A stretch of DNA of 64,000 nt from contig NSIR01000007.1 in NCBI GenBank assembly GCA_002737445.1, forward strand, positions 1 to 64,000, read 5' to 3'. This document shows positions 57,095 to 62,876 of this stretch, in pieces (the first letter of the stretch is position 1; each line of letters opens with the position of its first letter). The notes under the pieces are model-generated. The model did not search any database and had not been told where the DNA came from. It worked only from the letters and a program-made list of their open reading frames with translations. Source of the DNA: Nitrosarchaeum sp. (GTDB lineage: Archaea; Thermoproteota; Nitrososphaeria; Nitrososphaerales; Nitrosopumilaceae). The translations under genes and the position numbers were made by a program.

Positions 57095-57436
57095 ATGAAA
57101 AAAATTGATGCTACAATTCAAATTGATAAAGTAAATCTAGTTTCTAATGCCATAAAAAATTTGGTTGGTGGATTTACGGTATTAGAAGGAAATGGTAGAG
57201 GATCAGGTCAAAGGCAAACCATTACAGGTGGTAGAGGAACAGAAGCCTTTGTTGCAGAATTCAACAGAGTTGCAATAATTAGCATAATTGTGGAAGACTC
57301 AAAAGTTGAAATCATAATTAATGCAATTTCAGAGGTAACTTTTACAGGAAATTCTGGGGATGGAATAATAGTGATATCCACAATAGATGATGTTGTAAAT
57401 ATCGCATCAAAAAAAAGAGGCTCTCAAGCCCTTTAA
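57095..57436 (+). CDS. PII-family nitrogen signal protein (GlnK-like)
   Basis: A 113-residue PII protein. The T-loop region is GNGRGSGQRQTITGGRGTEAFVAEFNRV, the core has AIISIIVEDSKVEIIINAISEVTF, and the C-loop signature is GDGIIVISTIDDVVNIASKKRGSQAL. PII proteins sense 2-oxoglutarate/ATP/ADP and control ammonium transport and assimilation. No amt transporter is adjacent in this window. The T-loop lacks the Tyr51 uridylylation residue of bacterial GlnB, typical for archaea. Confidence 0.9.
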   Translation: MKKIDATIQIDKVNLVSNAIKNLVGGFTVLEGNGRGSGQRQTITGGRGTEAFVAEFNRVAIISIIVEDSKVEIIINAISEVTFTGNSGDGIIVISTIDDVVNIASKKRGSQAL

Positions 57437-57589
57437 TTATTGAAATTATAGAAATAATAATTTTAAATAATGTTTCACAAAATTGCTGCACATTTCAAGT
57501 AAAAAATCATATAATGATAATGCAGAGGTATTTTGAAATAGCTTGCGAATATAATAACAATTTAAAAAATTACATGAAAGACAAAATAT

Positions 57590-57676
57590 GGTAATCAACT
57601 GAGAGGATTTGAATTATTCCTCTCAGAGGTTATCCCTTTGGGGGACATGTTTGTTAAAGGGATGATGAATCATTAC
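57590..57676 (+). ncRNA. Candidate three-way-junction RNA behind the PII gene
   Basis: Three stems share one junction: outer GTAAT / ATTAC (57591-57595 with 57672-57676), CTGAGAGGA / TCCTCTCAG (57599-57607 with 57618-57626, 9 bp, loop 10 nt) and GTTATCCCTTT / AAAGGGATGAT (57629-57639 with 57656-57666, two G-U pairs that favour the plus strand). Promoter-like TTTAAAAAATTA lies at 57561-57572. The rest of the 57437-57812 gap holds no gene. No known riboswitch or ribozyme core is recognised. Confidence 0.5.
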
Positions 57677-57812
57677 AATCCAAGTATAAAACCTAATGAA
57701 TTGTTCCTAGTACAAATATAGATTTTAATTAAATATGAAAAGTATTTGATTAAAAAAAATTCAAAATTTGAGCCTAATTAAAACTAGATAAAATTATTTA
57801 GAATCATAAAAA

Positions 57813-58367
57813 TTATACAGATTTAAGATTTTGTTCTGTTACTACATTTAATGTCATGGTAGTTCTTACATGAGGTAATTTCCTGAGTGCTTTTGTAATA
57901 ATATTTTCTAATTGTTTGTATTCAGATGTTTCAATTTTACAAATAACGTCGTAATATCCAAAAACTACATCAGCTTCTTTTACTTCTGGAATATGGCTAA
58001 GATTTTTTAAAATATTATATTCTTCACCTTTGTCACTGTGAAAAACAACATATGCTTTAACATTATTTCTACCAAGTATAGAAGATATTAGTTTTTGAGA
58101 TGGTTGAAATAATTCTTCATCTTCTGAACGTGTCAGTGTTATAGTAGATTGAATATTAGGCATCTTACGAATTACATTTGTTACAGTATGTTGAATTTTT
58201 TGTTCAGAATCGGATTCAATTTTTACAATCACATCATAAAGACCAAATGTACCATGAACATCAGTAATATGATCAATCGTCTGTAACGAGGAAATTACAC
58301 TTTTTTCTGAGCCGAGATTACAATTTATGAGAACGTATGCTTTAGCCAATCTATTTTTCATCCACAA
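57813..58367 (-). CDS. Tandem Lrp/AsnC RAM-domain protein
   Basis: A 184-residue protein consisting of two Lrp-type RAM domains. The first has AYVLINCNLGSEKSVISSLQ, TDVHGTFGLYDVIVKIESDSE and RKMPNIQSTITLTR; the second has KAYVVFHSDKGEEYNILKNLSHIPEVKEADVVFGYYDVICKIETSEY and RKLPHVRTTMTLN. There is no DNA-binding domain. It resembles the 79-residue single-domain protein at 27580. Likely an amino-acid-sensing partner of Lrp-like regulators. Confidence 0.85.
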   Translation of the reverse strand: MWMKNRLAKAYVLINCNLGSEKSVISSLQTIDHITDVHGTFGLYDVIVKIESDSEQKIQHTVTNVIRKMPNIQSTITLTRSEDEELFQPSQKLISSILGRNNVKAYVVFHSDKGEEYNILKNLSHIPEVKEADVVFGYYDVICKIETSEYKQLENIITKALRKLPHVRTTMTLNVVTEQNLKSV

Positions 58368-58456: not shown

Positions 58457-59422
58457 CTAACAAAATAAAACATATGCGTCGGTCATAATTTTTTCTAGTT
58501 CTTCAATATTTTTTGATCCAGATATTTTTGGACGCAATTTTGTAGCACCTACCATTCCTTTAGTAAATCTCATTGCTTGACTTTTTATGTTTGAAAATTT
58601 TATATTGTATTTACCGGTAAGACGAAGATATTCAAAAAATGAATCAAGCTTATCTTTTAATGAGTATTGTTTGTAAGTTCCAGTTTTCAGATAATCATTA
58701 ATTTGTTCAAATAAAAATGGATTTCCCATTGCACCTCGACCAATCATCACATAATCACAGTTAGTTTGATCAATCATTGTTTTAGCATCTTCAGGAGTTA
58801 TTATATCACCATTACCTACTATTGGTATATTTGAAATTTCTTTCAATTCTTTAATCATTTTCCAATCAGCACGACCTGAGTATCTTTGAGTTACAGTTCT
58901 AGGATGTAACGTAATCATTTGTATTCCTTCATCCTCTGCAATTGCAGCAATTTCTTTGAAAAGATAACGACTTGCATCAGTGACACCTGATCTAATTTTT
59001 AAAGTGACAGGCTTTTTTACTGCATTAACTAGCGTGTTAAAAATTTGTTGGGTAAGATTTGCTTCCTGTAAAAGTGCCCCACCTGCCATTTGTTGCGTTA
59101 TATGTGGTGCAGGACAACCCATATTGTAATCAATAATATCAAAAAATGGTTCTACTATCTTTGCAGCTTTTTCTAGAGCTAAAAGATCAGAGCCAAATAA
59201 TTGGACAGAAAGAGGTCTTTCCTGTTCAGAATATTCTAAAAATTCTTGAATGGTTTTATTGTTTTCTTTGAGTTGTTGTTCTTTTGCAATTATACTATGA
59301 ATACTAGTAAATTCTGTTACAACCAATCCGGCACCCATTTTTTTACATTGTAATCTTAAAGCAGGATCACTTACACCAGCCATTGGGGCTAAAAATGCCC
59401 TACTTGAAAATTTTGGAAGCAT
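58457..59422 (-). CDS. dus: tRNA-dihydrouridine synthase
   Basis: A 321-residue flavoenzyme of the Dus family. It has RAFLAPMAGVSDPALRLQCKKMGAGLVVTEFTS at the start, SVQLFGSDLLALEKAAKI, the catalytic-Cys strand DYNMGCPAPHI (Cys near 101), KPVTLKIRSGV, MITLHPRTVTQRYSGRADW and IPIVGNGDIITPEDA. It reduces specific uridines to dihydrouridine in tRNA. Confidence 0.92.
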   Translation of the reverse strand: MLPKFSSRAFLAPMAGVSDPALRLQCKKMGAGLVVTEFTSIHSIIAKEQQLKENNKTIQEFLEYSEQERPLSVQLFGSDLLALEKAAKIVEPFFDIIDYNMGCPAPHITQQMAGGALLQEANLTQQIFNTLVNAVKKPVTLKIRSGVTDASRYLFKEIAAIAEDEGIQMITLHPRTVTQRYSGRADWKMIKELKEISNIPIVGNGDIITPEDAKTMIDQTNCDYVMIGRGAMGNPFLFEQINDYLKTGTYKQYSLKDKLDSFFEYLRLTGKYNIKFSNIKSQAMRFTKGMVGATKLRPKISGSKNIEELEKIMTDAYVLFC

Positions 59423-59488: not shown

Positions 59489-60307
59489 TTATGGAGTAAT
59501 ATCTGGGCATCCATCTGTATCGTCATACTTGTTCCAAGTTTCAGGACTTTGTGGACATGAATCAATTGTATCTGGATAACCGTCATTATCTGTATCAGGT
59601 CGTGGTGAAACAGTGGATTTTGCACCATCTACATCTGGACATCCGTCTTTGTCCAAATAGCTGTTAAAGTTTTCTGGTTGATTAACACATGAATCCCATC
59701 TATCTTCAATACCATCACCATCTGTATCTGGGAATTGGTATAAAGTGGTAACATCAGATACGACATCTGGACATCCGTCTTCATCTTGGAATTTGTTAAA
59801 AGTTTCTGGAACTAATGGACATGTATCCAAAGAATTTGAAATACCATCTCTATCAGTATCATTTGTTACAATAGATTTGTCAGGACAACCATCTTTGTCC
59901 AGATAACCGTTGAATGTTTCAGATTGAGTTGGACATGTATCCAAGAAATCAGCAATTCCATCATTATCTGTATCGGGGATTGCTTTACCTGAATAAGATA
60001 AAGAATCAGGACATCCATCGTCATCTTGTATTTTATTATAAGTCTCTTTAACTGCAGGACAGTTATCTATGTGATCTGGAATAGCATCAAAATCAGAATC
60101 ATGCCAAGGGATAAAATCTGCAGGACATCCATCTACGTTGTTACCAAATTGAGGATCATAATCTTCTTGTAAATGTGGGCAATGATCAATGCTATTTGGT
60201 ACACCATCATTATCAATATCATTTATTTGAGAACCGTAAACATTACCTTGAAACACACCCATGAAAATAATTAAAAGTAATAATCCTAAGATTGAATATT
60301 TTTTCAT
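59489..60307 (-). CDS. Secreted thrombospondin type 3 repeat protein (shorter)
   Basis: A 272-residue exported protein: signal peptide LGLLLLIIFMGVFQGNVYG, then about six calcium-binding thrombospondin type 3 repeats of the form DxDxDGxxDxxDxCP...ETxNxxxDxDGCPD. Cys pairs within and between repeats are regular. Such repeats bind Ca2+ and stiffen surface proteins. It begins 13 bp behind the longer paralogue's stop and has the same upstream sequence AGGTAAATT, so the pair arose by duplication. Confidence 0.9.
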   Translation of the reverse strand: MKKYSILGLLLLIIFMGVFQGNVYGSQINDIDNDGVPNSIDHCPHLQEDYDPQFGNNVDGCPADFIPWHDSDFDAIPDHIDNCPAVKETYNKIQDDDGCPDSLSYSGKAIPDTDNDGIADFLDTCPTQSETFNGYLDKDGCPDKSIVTNDTDRDGISNSLDTCPLVPETFNKFQDEDGCPDVVSDVTTLYQFPDTDGDGIEDRWDSCVNQPENFNSYLDKDGCPDVDGAKSTVSPRPDTDNDGYPDTIDSCPQSPETWNKYDDTDGCPDITP

Positions 60308-62680
60308 TTTATAATTTACCTATGGATCTGGACAACCGTCTGTATCTCTATCACCATCAAAATTTTCCGGTTCCATAGGACATTGATCATAATTATTCAT
60401 AATACCGTCTAGATCTGAATCATGTTTGTATCTTGATTGTTCTGGACTTGTATCAGGACACCCATCATTGTCTTGATATTTATTGAAAGTTTCTTTTTGA
60501 GTAGGACACATGTCAAATTCATCATTTATTCTGTCATCATCTGTATCCAAAGTAATTCTACCTATTGGAACTGTGTCAGGACAACCATCATTATCAGCAT
60601 ACATGTTAAAAGTTTCATTTTGTGCTGGACACATGTCCATTACATCTGGAACTCCATCACCATCAGCATCAGGTTGAGATACATTGCTATCTGGACATCC
60701 ATCTTCATCTTGGAATCCATTAAAAGTTTCAGCAACCAGTGGACAATCATCGCGTACATCACCTATTCCATCATTATCAGAATCTACTACAAAGGATTCC
60801 AAAATTGTATCAGCACATCCATCATCATCATTAAATTTATTATAACTTTCTGGAGATAGTGGACATGCATCTATTGTATCTGGTAAACCATCATTATCAC
60901 TATCAATATTAGAAATGTAATCATCAGGACATCCATCAAAATCTAAAATTCCATTAAATGTTTCTGATTGATTAGGACAATTATCTACCATATCATTGAT
61001 TCTGTCAGCATCAGCATCTGGGATTCCTTTATTATCAAATAAAGAGTCCTGACATCCATCATCATCATTGAATTTATTGTAAGTTTCTGGAATTAATGGA
61101 CAAGTATCTTTGCTATTTGAAATTCCGTCAAAATCAGAATCTATATCATTCAAATAAGCACGAAAATCTGGGCAACCATCTTCATCTTCAAATCCATTAT
61201 ATCTTTCAGCAACTACAGGACATGTATCAGCAGAATCTAAAATTCCATCATAATCAGTATCAGATTCTGAAGGATTATCTGGGCAACCATCAAAATCAGC
61301 ATATCTATTCCATGTTTCAGATGTAGAAGGACATAGATCTAATGAATCACGAATTCCATCATAATCAGAATCAACTACAGATACATCTGGACATCCATCT
61401 GTATCTTGATAATCATTAACAGTTTCAGCAACTAGTGGACATTTGTCAACCATATCACGAATTCCATCACCATCTAAATCCATACGTACACCAGATATAC
61501 CATCTGGACATCCGTCATTATCTTGGAATTTGTTAAAAGTTTCTGGAGCAAGTGGACATGCATCTATTGTATCTACAATACCATCATTATCTCTATCAAT
61601 TGTAGTTGCACTATCAGGACAACCATCTGTATCCAAATATTCATTTGTTGTTTCTAATTGTGTTGGACACATATCATAATAATCAATAATACCGTCACCA
61701 TCTGTATCTGGCGTATCCCTAGTTGGACTGGCAGAATCTGAACATCCATCATCATCATTGAATTTATTATAAGTTTCTTTTACTTGTGGACATTCATCAA
61801 TGTTATTTGGAATTCCATCTTGATCTGAATCTACATTAGTTGAATATGGAATAATATCAGGACATCCATCTTCATCTTCAAATCCATTATATCTTTCAGA
61901 TGTTAATGGACATGCATCATTTGTATTTAAAATACCATCCTTGTCAGAATCTATATTTTCAGAGAACAAAGGAGTTGTATCTGAACATCCATCTGAATCA
62001 GCAAAGCGATTGAATGTTTCTGCTTGATTAGGACAAGTATCAAATGTATCTCCAATTCCATCACCATCAGTATCAGTAATTGTTGTAGCTAGTGTAACAT
62101 CAGGACATCCATCTTCATCTCTATAACCGTTAAAGCTTTCTGGTTGAGTTGAACACAAATCAAGTTTGTCTGCAATTCCATCATTATCAGTGTCAATAAA
62201 TGCAGAATCAGCTACACTATCAGGACATCCATCTGTATCTTGGAATTTATTATAACTTTCAGGGCTTAGCGGACATGCATCATCACTGTTTGTAATTCCA
62301 TCTTGATCTGAATCTATACGAGAACCAAAACTATCTGGACATCCATCTGAATCAAGTAATCCATTGAAAGTTTCTGCTCGAGTTGGACATAAATCAACTA
62401 CATCAATAAAACCATCACTGTCAATATCAGTTACTCCAGATATACCAGTTTGAGGAGCGGTATCAGAACATCCATCTGAATCTTGAAATTTATTGTAATT
62501 TTCTTTCACATTTGGACATTGATCTACATCGTCTTGAATTCCATCAAAGTCTTCATCATACCATGGAACAAAATTAGAAGGACATCCATCAATTAACCCT
62601 TGATTATCTTCTTTGAGATTTGGACAACTATCAATTTCATCTAGTACACCATCAGCATCCAAGTCAGAAATTGCATATGA
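59500..62680 (-). repeat. Array of thrombospondin type 3 coding repeats across two genes
   Basis: About 26 repeats of roughly 33-40 codons, each ending in the DGCPD/GCPD motif. Recurrent DNA words such as tcaggacatccatc and catcattatc run throughout, but copies have diverged, so the array is old rather than a recent amplification. Confidence 0.85.
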
Positions 62681-62743
62681 AGAACCAAAATTAATGCTCA
62701 TTAATGTGACTAAAAATAAGAATCCAAAAAATATTTTTTTCAA
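60320..62743 (-). CDS. Secreted thrombospondin type 3 repeat protein (longer)
   Basis: An 807-residue exported protein with a signal peptide (KKIFFGFLFLVTLMSINFGSSYA) and about twenty thrombospondin type 3 repeats. Each has the DxDxDGI.D..D.CP and ETxNxxxDxDGCPD halves. The TTG at 62743 is chosen as start because it is preceded by AGGTAAATT, exactly as the ATG of the neighbouring paralogue is, and because it begins a normal signal peptide; the frame is open to 62806. It is probably a Ca2+-loaded S-layer or surface fibre protein. Confidence 0.9.
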   Translation of the reverse strand: MKKIFFGFLFLVTLMSINFGSSYAISDLDADGVLDEIDSCPNLKEDNQGLIDGCPSNFVPWYDEDFDGIQDDVDQCPNVKENYNKFQDSDGCSDTAPQTGISGVTDIDSDGFIDVVDLCPTRAETFNGLLDSDGCPDSFGSRIDSDQDGITNSDDACPLSPESYNKFQDTDGCPDSVADSAFIDTDNDGIADKLDLCSTQPESFNGYRDEDGCPDVTLATTITDTDGDGIGDTFDTCPNQAETFNRFADSDGCSDTTPLFSENIDSDKDGILNTNDACPLTSERYNGFEDEDGCPDIIPYSTNVDSDQDGIPNNIDECPQVKETYNKFNDDDGCSDSASPTRDTPDTDGDGIIDYYDMCPTQLETTNEYLDTDGCPDSATTIDRDNDGIVDTIDACPLAPETFNKFQDNDGCPDGISGVRMDLDGDGIRDMVDKCPLVAETVNDYQDTDGCPDVSVVDSDYDGIRDSLDLCPSTSETWNRYADFDGCPDNPSESDTDYDGILDSADTCPVVAERYNGFEDEDGCPDFRAYLNDIDSDFDGISNSKDTCPLIPETYNKFNDDDGCQDSLFDNKGIPDADADRINDMVDNCPNQSETFNGILDFDGCPDDYISNIDSDNDGLPDTIDACPLSPESYNKFNDDDGCADTILESFVVDSDNDGIGDVRDDCPLVAETFNGFQDEDGCPDSNVSQPDADGDGVPDVMDMCPAQNETFNMYADNDGCPDTVPIGRITLDTDDDRINDEFDMCPTQKETFNKYQDNDGCPDTSPEQSRYKHDSDLDGIMNNYDQCPMEPENFDGDRDTDGCPDP

Positions 62744-62876
62744 GCTTAAATTTACCTCAAATACCCAGTAATTAAACTTCACTCTGGAATTACTTGAAAA
62801 TATCAAAAATTAGATAATGATTTTCAAGTTCAAAAGATCTCGATAAATTTAAGTAAAACAAAATAAGATATTTCAT

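Follow-up and report, generated by a model that had tools for sequence, protein, structure and literature searches.

The glnA RNA and the Downstream-peptide RNA, two glutamine riboswitches classified in Rfam, are nitrogen-related junction RNAs that act in cis as leaders in cyanobacteria and cyanobacterial phages. Archaeal small RNAs have been described from other settings. sRNA154 of Methanosarcina mazei, 130 nt long, is transcribed only under nitrogen limitation, from a promoter that contains a potential NrpR operator (GGTA-N6-TACC; PMC3177094). Tan1, a non-coding RNA of 229 nt from marine group II Euryarchaeota, is abundant and was seen in transcriptomes (PMC5069720). Here we analysed a 64,000 nt stretch of a Nitrosarchaeum sp. 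genome (GCA_002737445.1, contig NSIR01000007.1, hereafter the window), for which a preliminary description had proposed a nitrogen-related three-way-junction RNA on the plus strand, directly behind the gene for the PII nitrogen sensor; a riboswitch of the glnA type may be the kind of RNA that this description had in mind. Our comparison of homologous loci argues for a real and previously undescribed small RNA family which, as far as searched, is found in three genera of ammonia-oxidising archaea and appears to be encoded on the minus strand. No report of a transcript at this locus was found in the literature, with subscription journals outside the coverage of the search.

The predicted core of the small non-coding RNA comprises 78 nt on the minus strand (57586..57663; covariance model E 2.9e-17, alignment of 92 sequences). 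It appears to have a promoter of its own, with a near-invariant TATA box (TTTTATA, 57685..57691, minus strand) that is present with rare single-base variants in 91 of 92 homologues; the sequence of the remaining homologue is cut off by the end of its contig. In all 91 homologues the TATA box is followed by the conserved block ATCCCTTC, which begins with AUCCCUUC at 57663; the spacing is 19-22 nt, and 86 of them have 20-21 nt. Archaeal start sites are expected at this distance from a TATA box. Directly ahead of the block, 8-10 nt are variable, like promoter spacers, and conservation starts abruptly thereafter. We infer that the 5′ end of the RNA lies at or next to 57663, while its 3′ end is uncertain. 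Within the interval between TATA box and start site, the motif ATTGTAAT (57672..57679, minus strand) is conserved in most homologues and more strongly than a plain spacer, which might indicate a regulator site or a further promoter element. The arrangement TTTATA-N(3-6)-ATTGTAAT is unique in the whole genome from which the window derives, and a regulon defined by this promoter motif was therefore rejected. An NrpR operator (GGTA-N6-TACC) was not conserved in the aligned promoters as read by eye.

Two hairpins are supported within the core. Hairpin A (57631..57647, minus strand) consists of 6 bp and a loop, UGUCCC-CCAAA-GGGAUA, with the loop CCAAA conserved in 91 of 92 sequences and four of six pairs changed on both sides. 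Hairpin B (57599..57626, minus strand) consists of 8-9 bp, CUGAGAGG...CCUCUCAG, with seven of eight pairs changed on both sides and 97.4% of cells paired; it is identical with the 9-bp stem noted previously (57599-57607 / 57618-57626), which is thus present and supported by covariation. For the covariation test the 92 homologues were aligned with MAFFT by sequence only, without structure. Over both hairpins 97.2% of cells were paired and 11 of 14 pairs showed changes on both sides. The number of doubly changed cells was 55, compared to 13.1 in shuffled alignments and 5-13 in slid controls, and none of 500 shuffles reached the observed value. By parsimony on a quick tree of the flanking proteins, most pairs have changed several times (for example, 16 changes for the pair closing hairpin A and 8 for the one after it), and the covariation therefore does not go back to one inherited event. 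When folded alone (57663-57586, minus strand), the predicted RNA had a z-score of -4.0 and none of 200 shuffles was as good, so the hairpins exceed what is expected by chance. The minus strand of the wider region also folds (z -1.9).

The remaining stems of the proposed junction fared differently. Folding of the plus strand (57560-57700; MFE -32.4 kcal/mol, z -2.2) recovered the 9-bp stem and a stem of 11 bp, some of them G-U (57629-57639 / 57656-57666), and excluded the outer stem. The 11-bp stem does fold in this genome, but it carries no covariation signal: read as AUCCCUU/AAGGGAU it is paired in 90% of cells with covariation no greater than in shuffles, and no covariation was seen between the 5′ segment and GGGAU over the 92 sequences. 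On the plus strand its inner nine pairs do mostly form, since the substitutions in it run by coincidence from C to U. Four genomes of a single genus (g4) carry a change from C-G to A-U that breaks the long stem and keeps hairpin A, and the long stem was rejected as the real fold. Energy-based folding of the sequence from the window favours a longer 5′ stem (AUCCCUUU/AAAGGGAU) over hairpin A, whereas the predicted folds of six divergent homologues consist of hairpins A and B. A switch between hairpin A and the long stem is possible in some species, although covariation lends it no support. The outer stem GUAAU/AUUAC (57591-57595 / 57672-57676) is present as a weak pairing, but only 58.5% paired over the 92 sequences, with a 3′ arm that shares positions with the conserved ATTGTAAT, i.e. 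the promoter between TATA box and start. Since the outer stem is not conserved, a three-way junction on the plus strand was rejected. The alignment of the intergenic gap for compensatory changes, which the preliminary description had proposed as a check, has thus borne out hairpins A and B and failed to do so for the two other stems.

The placement on the minus strand follows from the TATA spacing, the lack of upstream conservation on the plus strand, one telling base pair and the counts of wobble pairs. A promoter-like sequence had been noted upstream of the plus-strand element. A conserved promoter element does exist, but it is the TATA box on the minus strand, and nothing is conserved upstream on the plus strand. 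Both this promoter and the conservation boundary belong to the minus strand, which speaks against the plus-strand orientation. The pair between alignment columns 19 and 33 in hairpin A reads on the minus strand as G-U in 76 of 92 sequences, as G-C in 13 and as A-U in two; on the plus strand the 76 sequences with G-U would have A-C. Over the 14 pairs we counted 105 wobbles possible on the minus strand only and 21 on the plus strand only, most of the former from the 19-33 pair. Without this pair the counts are 29 and 21, which is not significant (inner pairs 23 and 8), and binomial p values for the wobble bias are not strict because the sequences are related. An RNA gene transcribed from the minus strand is the most consistent interpretation.

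Ahead of hairpin A, the segment AUCCCUUU (57656..57663, minus strand) is near-invariant and unpaired in the conserved structure. It reads AUCCCUUC or AUCCCUUU in 84 of 92 sequences, with AUCCCUUC in most, and is a candidate seed. At the other end, the first run of at least five T in the window lies at 57569-57564, about 95-100 nt from the start; half of the homologues have such a run at 68-96 nt and most others at 109-146 nt. Judging from these T-runs, transcription probably ends in the T-rich sequence 3′ of hairpin B, which would give an RNA of about 75-100 nt. We also considered coding potential. A short ORF on the RNA strand was rejected, with its ATG in hairpin A (AUGUCCCCCAAAGGG) lost in several homologues; the reading frame varies in length and peptide, with 55 different peptides in 79 sequences. 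A plus-strand frame from the same CATG was likewise rejected, its start being lost where the C changes. With its own promoter, compensatory changes in its structure and no conserved reading frame, the locus shows three features of a stand-alone archaeal small RNA.

The window's own genome contains one copy of the RNA gene. By BLAST, 15 of the 17 further genomes in the genus were seen to carry the element, as was one genome of another genus (77-87% identity; 79-87% within the genus), with glnK and lrp on either side of the element. A scan of named genomes gave 26 archaeal records, most of them Nitrosarchaeum or Nitrosopumilus, of which nine were identical over element and flanks to same-genus loci already found by BLAST. 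Of 250 Nitrosopumilaceae genomes scanned with a first covariance model, built from 34 sequences, 93 gave a hit, always as a single copy; they belong to three genera, including Nitrosarchaeum and Nitrosopumilus, and the other genera of the order yielded no copy. In the genome presumed to be that of Nitrosopumilus maritimus SCM1, the copy occupies 1385303-1385376 on the minus strand. A second model (92 sequences) run across the class gave no hits outside three of the 82 genera sampled, and the RNA was not found beside glnK homologues of other genera. A repeat or mobile element was rejected on the basis of the one copy per genome, and no match of at least 14 bases elsewhere in the window's own genome lay inside the RNA part. 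Virus-borne copies were rejected too, the single pattern match in IMG/VR having an unrelated context, and pattern matches in two bacteria (L049, L061) were dropped as chance.

As had been described, the element sits between the genes for PII and a Lrp protein with RAM domain, and Pfam confirmed both neighbours. The PII gene glnK (57095..57436, plus strand; P-II E 2.5e-10) is convergent and lies outside the RNA, and the Lrp/AsnC RAM-domain gene lrp (57813..58367, minus strand; AsnC_trans_reg E 5.6e-21) lies upstream on the same strand as the RNA and is followed by a dihydrouridine synthase gene (58457-59422, minus strand). Further on, the window encodes two adjacent proteins of 272 and 828 aa (59489-62806) with many DxDxDG calcium-binding-like repeats in the style of thrombospondin type 3. 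The glnK gene is convergent with the RNA gene in 80 of 92 loci and in no locus placed otherwise. One Nitrosarchaeum relative has another plus-strand gene between the RNA gene and glnK. In the Nitrosarchaeum relative L017, small genes lie between glnK, RNA and lrp (1249-1503 and 1726-2449), among them one for an 84-aa membrane-like protein; such genes are absent from the same place in the window's genome.

The RNA is found without either neighbour. At ten RNA loci whose flanks extend for at least 900 nt, glnK is missing from the neighbourhood, and two of the genomes concerned, G104 (95% complete) and G133 (98% complete), keep the RNA and have no detectable glnK of this type anywhere. Lrp is undetectable at 11 RNA loci (L104, L105, L106, L109, L115, L121, L123, L125, L130, L131, L098), where the dihydrouridine synthase gene is present beside the RNA, and we take this to mean that certain lineages have lost the Lrp gene. 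The opposite situation, intact glnK with no RNA next to it, was seen in G192 and G058; at the Nitrosopumilus locus G192:C1:275632-275970 (L166) intact glnK and a Lrp-like neighbour are present and the RNA gene is missing from the gap, which makes this locus a natural deletion. In a single case (G135:C1:429456-429794, L168) a glnK with in-frame TGA lies beside a degenerate RNA remnant. This faintly suggests that glnK and RNA share a fate, and it might reflect joint loss or possibly a sequencing error. The RNA persists without the PII gene and without the Lrp gene and is therefore part of neither. From these losses and separations it appears to be a gene of its own, whose neighbourhood is no proof of a role in nitrogen metabolism. 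What links it to nitrogen is its position, and as the RNA outlives the PII gene, adjacency to a nitrogen gene is insufficient for assigning such a role; the nitrogen interpretation is thus weakened. For the more general proposal of a structured small RNA in the gap between the genes for PII and Lrp-RAM, support is strong.

Comparison between genomes shows the gene, its strand, structure and promoter, its single copy and its independence from PII and Lrp, and in the predicted gene, strand and structure taken by themselves we have high confidence. Its mode of action is a separate matter. We propose that the RNA would be transcribed on the minus strand from its own TATA promoter (57691-57685), starting at or next to 57663, and would present an exposed near-invariant 5′ AUCCCUUC, the short hairpin A with its CCAAA loop, the longer hairpin B and a T-rich end. 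The 5′ AUCCCUUC, or the CCAAA loop, might contact target mRNAs or a protein, so that the RNA would act as regulator in trans, and the hairpins might protect it or dock a protein such as an Lsm. We rank this reading first since a trans-acting RNA that works by base-pairing would be expected to have an exposed, near-invariant and C-rich 5′ end ahead of stable hairpins, and we consider the full statement of a stand-alone minus-strand RNA gene acting in trans via its exposed 5′ AUCCCUUC about evenly poised between right and wrong. Perfect matches to the 9-nt complement UGAAGGGAU were searched in SCM1 and one Nitrosarchaeum genome, giving 14 and 13 sites, of which one in each genome is the RNA gene. 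In these two genomes no complement site at a translation start was conserved between orthologs, and the seed idea is therefore without a target. The only sense site shared by orthologs (L186/L212) was rejected, as it lies deep inside the coding sequence, probably owing to coding conservation; the encoded protein is presumably ESCRT-III-like, as we read it from its sequence.

Base-pairing in trans has to be weighed against other functions of the same transcript. Its main rival is a protein-binding RNA, a sponge or a stable ribonucleoprotein, whose 5′ end would be conserved for transcription initiation and not as a seed. Such a role would agree with the CCAAA loop in 91 of 92 sequences, with a conservation of hairpin B beyond the demands of pairing, and with the lack of a conserved mRNA target in the two genomes and of any match of at least 14 bases to the RNA part elsewhere in the window's genome. 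However, no repeated protein-binding motif was seen in the RNA and the conservation of the single-stranded 5′ segment comes close to that of the loop, which leaves a protein-binding role possible rather than probable. The transcript could also run into the 3′ end of glnK and affect the PII mRNA as a cis-antisense or convergent element. This would make use of the convergent glnK in 80 of 92 loci, and roughly every second locus has its first T-run 109-146 nt from the start, in Nitrosopumilus near or in the glnK 3′ end; the broken glnK of G135 also coincides with a decayed RNA. An antisense function is decidedly unlikely, however, as the RNA is kept at the ten loci without glnK and in G104 and G133, which are without glnK genome-wide, and as in Nitrosarchaeum another gene separates the two.

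Two further readings dispense with a minus-strand RNA. The plus-strand three-way junction of the preliminary description, located downstream of glnK as part of its 3′ UTR or as a separate small RNA, draws on the mostly paired inner nine pairs of the 11-bp stem and on the plus-strand fold (z -2.2). We give it very little credence given its poorly conserved outer stem (58.5% paired), the lack of covariation in the long stem, the A-C mismatch that the 19-33 pair would become in 76 of 92 sequences, and the promoter and conservation boundary on the other strand. Least credible of all is a conserved DNA element such as a cruciform or binding site; covariation of pairs by itself cannot separate hairpins in DNA from those in RNA, but the conserved G-U pair (76 of 92) forms no standard pair in DNA and the dedicated promoter stands at fixed spacing. 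Returning to the trans-acting RNA, one might speculate that it serves Nitrosopumilus and Nitrosarchaeum as a regulatory RNA specific to their lineage, controlled by a regulator at ATTGTAAT and acting on several mRNAs via AUCCCUUC to adjust ammonia oxidation or nitrogen assimilation. We regard this extended scenario as rather unlikely; if true, it would add a post-transcriptional regulator in organisms that are central to marine nitrification.

The locus was further compared with known RNA classes. Searches of the RNA region against Rfam 15 gave no family match at the gathering cut-offs, and the matches below them, with 10-17 bits where the cut-offs lie at 37-79, were at chance level. In length the RNA resembles archaeal C/D-box and H/ACA guide RNAs, but their boxes, pocket and Rfam match are absent here: by eye, the alignment shows no conserved C box (RUGAUGA) near the 5′ end, a conserved CUGA with the sequence of a D box lies in the 5′ arm of hairpin B and not near the 3′ end, and there is neither a conserved ACA after either hairpin nor an internal pocket. 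A cis-acting leader or riboswitch would need a gene behind it, and no same-strand gene follows directly in the window or in the 80 of 92 loci with convergent glnK; at some loci without glnK the next ORF is on the same strand, but at a distance of roughly 100-450 nt from the RNA. The glnA and Downstream-peptide riboswitches thus differ from the present RNA, which has no same-strand gene before the convergent gene and no Rfam match. With Tan1 it shares the status of an unassigned non-coding RNA of archaeal plankton with a structure proposed from homologues (PMC5069720), although Tan1, at 229 nt, belongs to another lineage and the present RNA is predicted from the comparison of genomes. sRNA154 belongs to another group of organisms and the present RNA, known from sequence comparison, carries the ATTGTAAT element instead of an NrpR operator, yet both appear as archaeal stand-alone intergenic small RNAs with a promoter of their own. 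In spirit, sRNA154, a proposed nitrogen regulator (PMC3177094), may be regarded as the closest described case.
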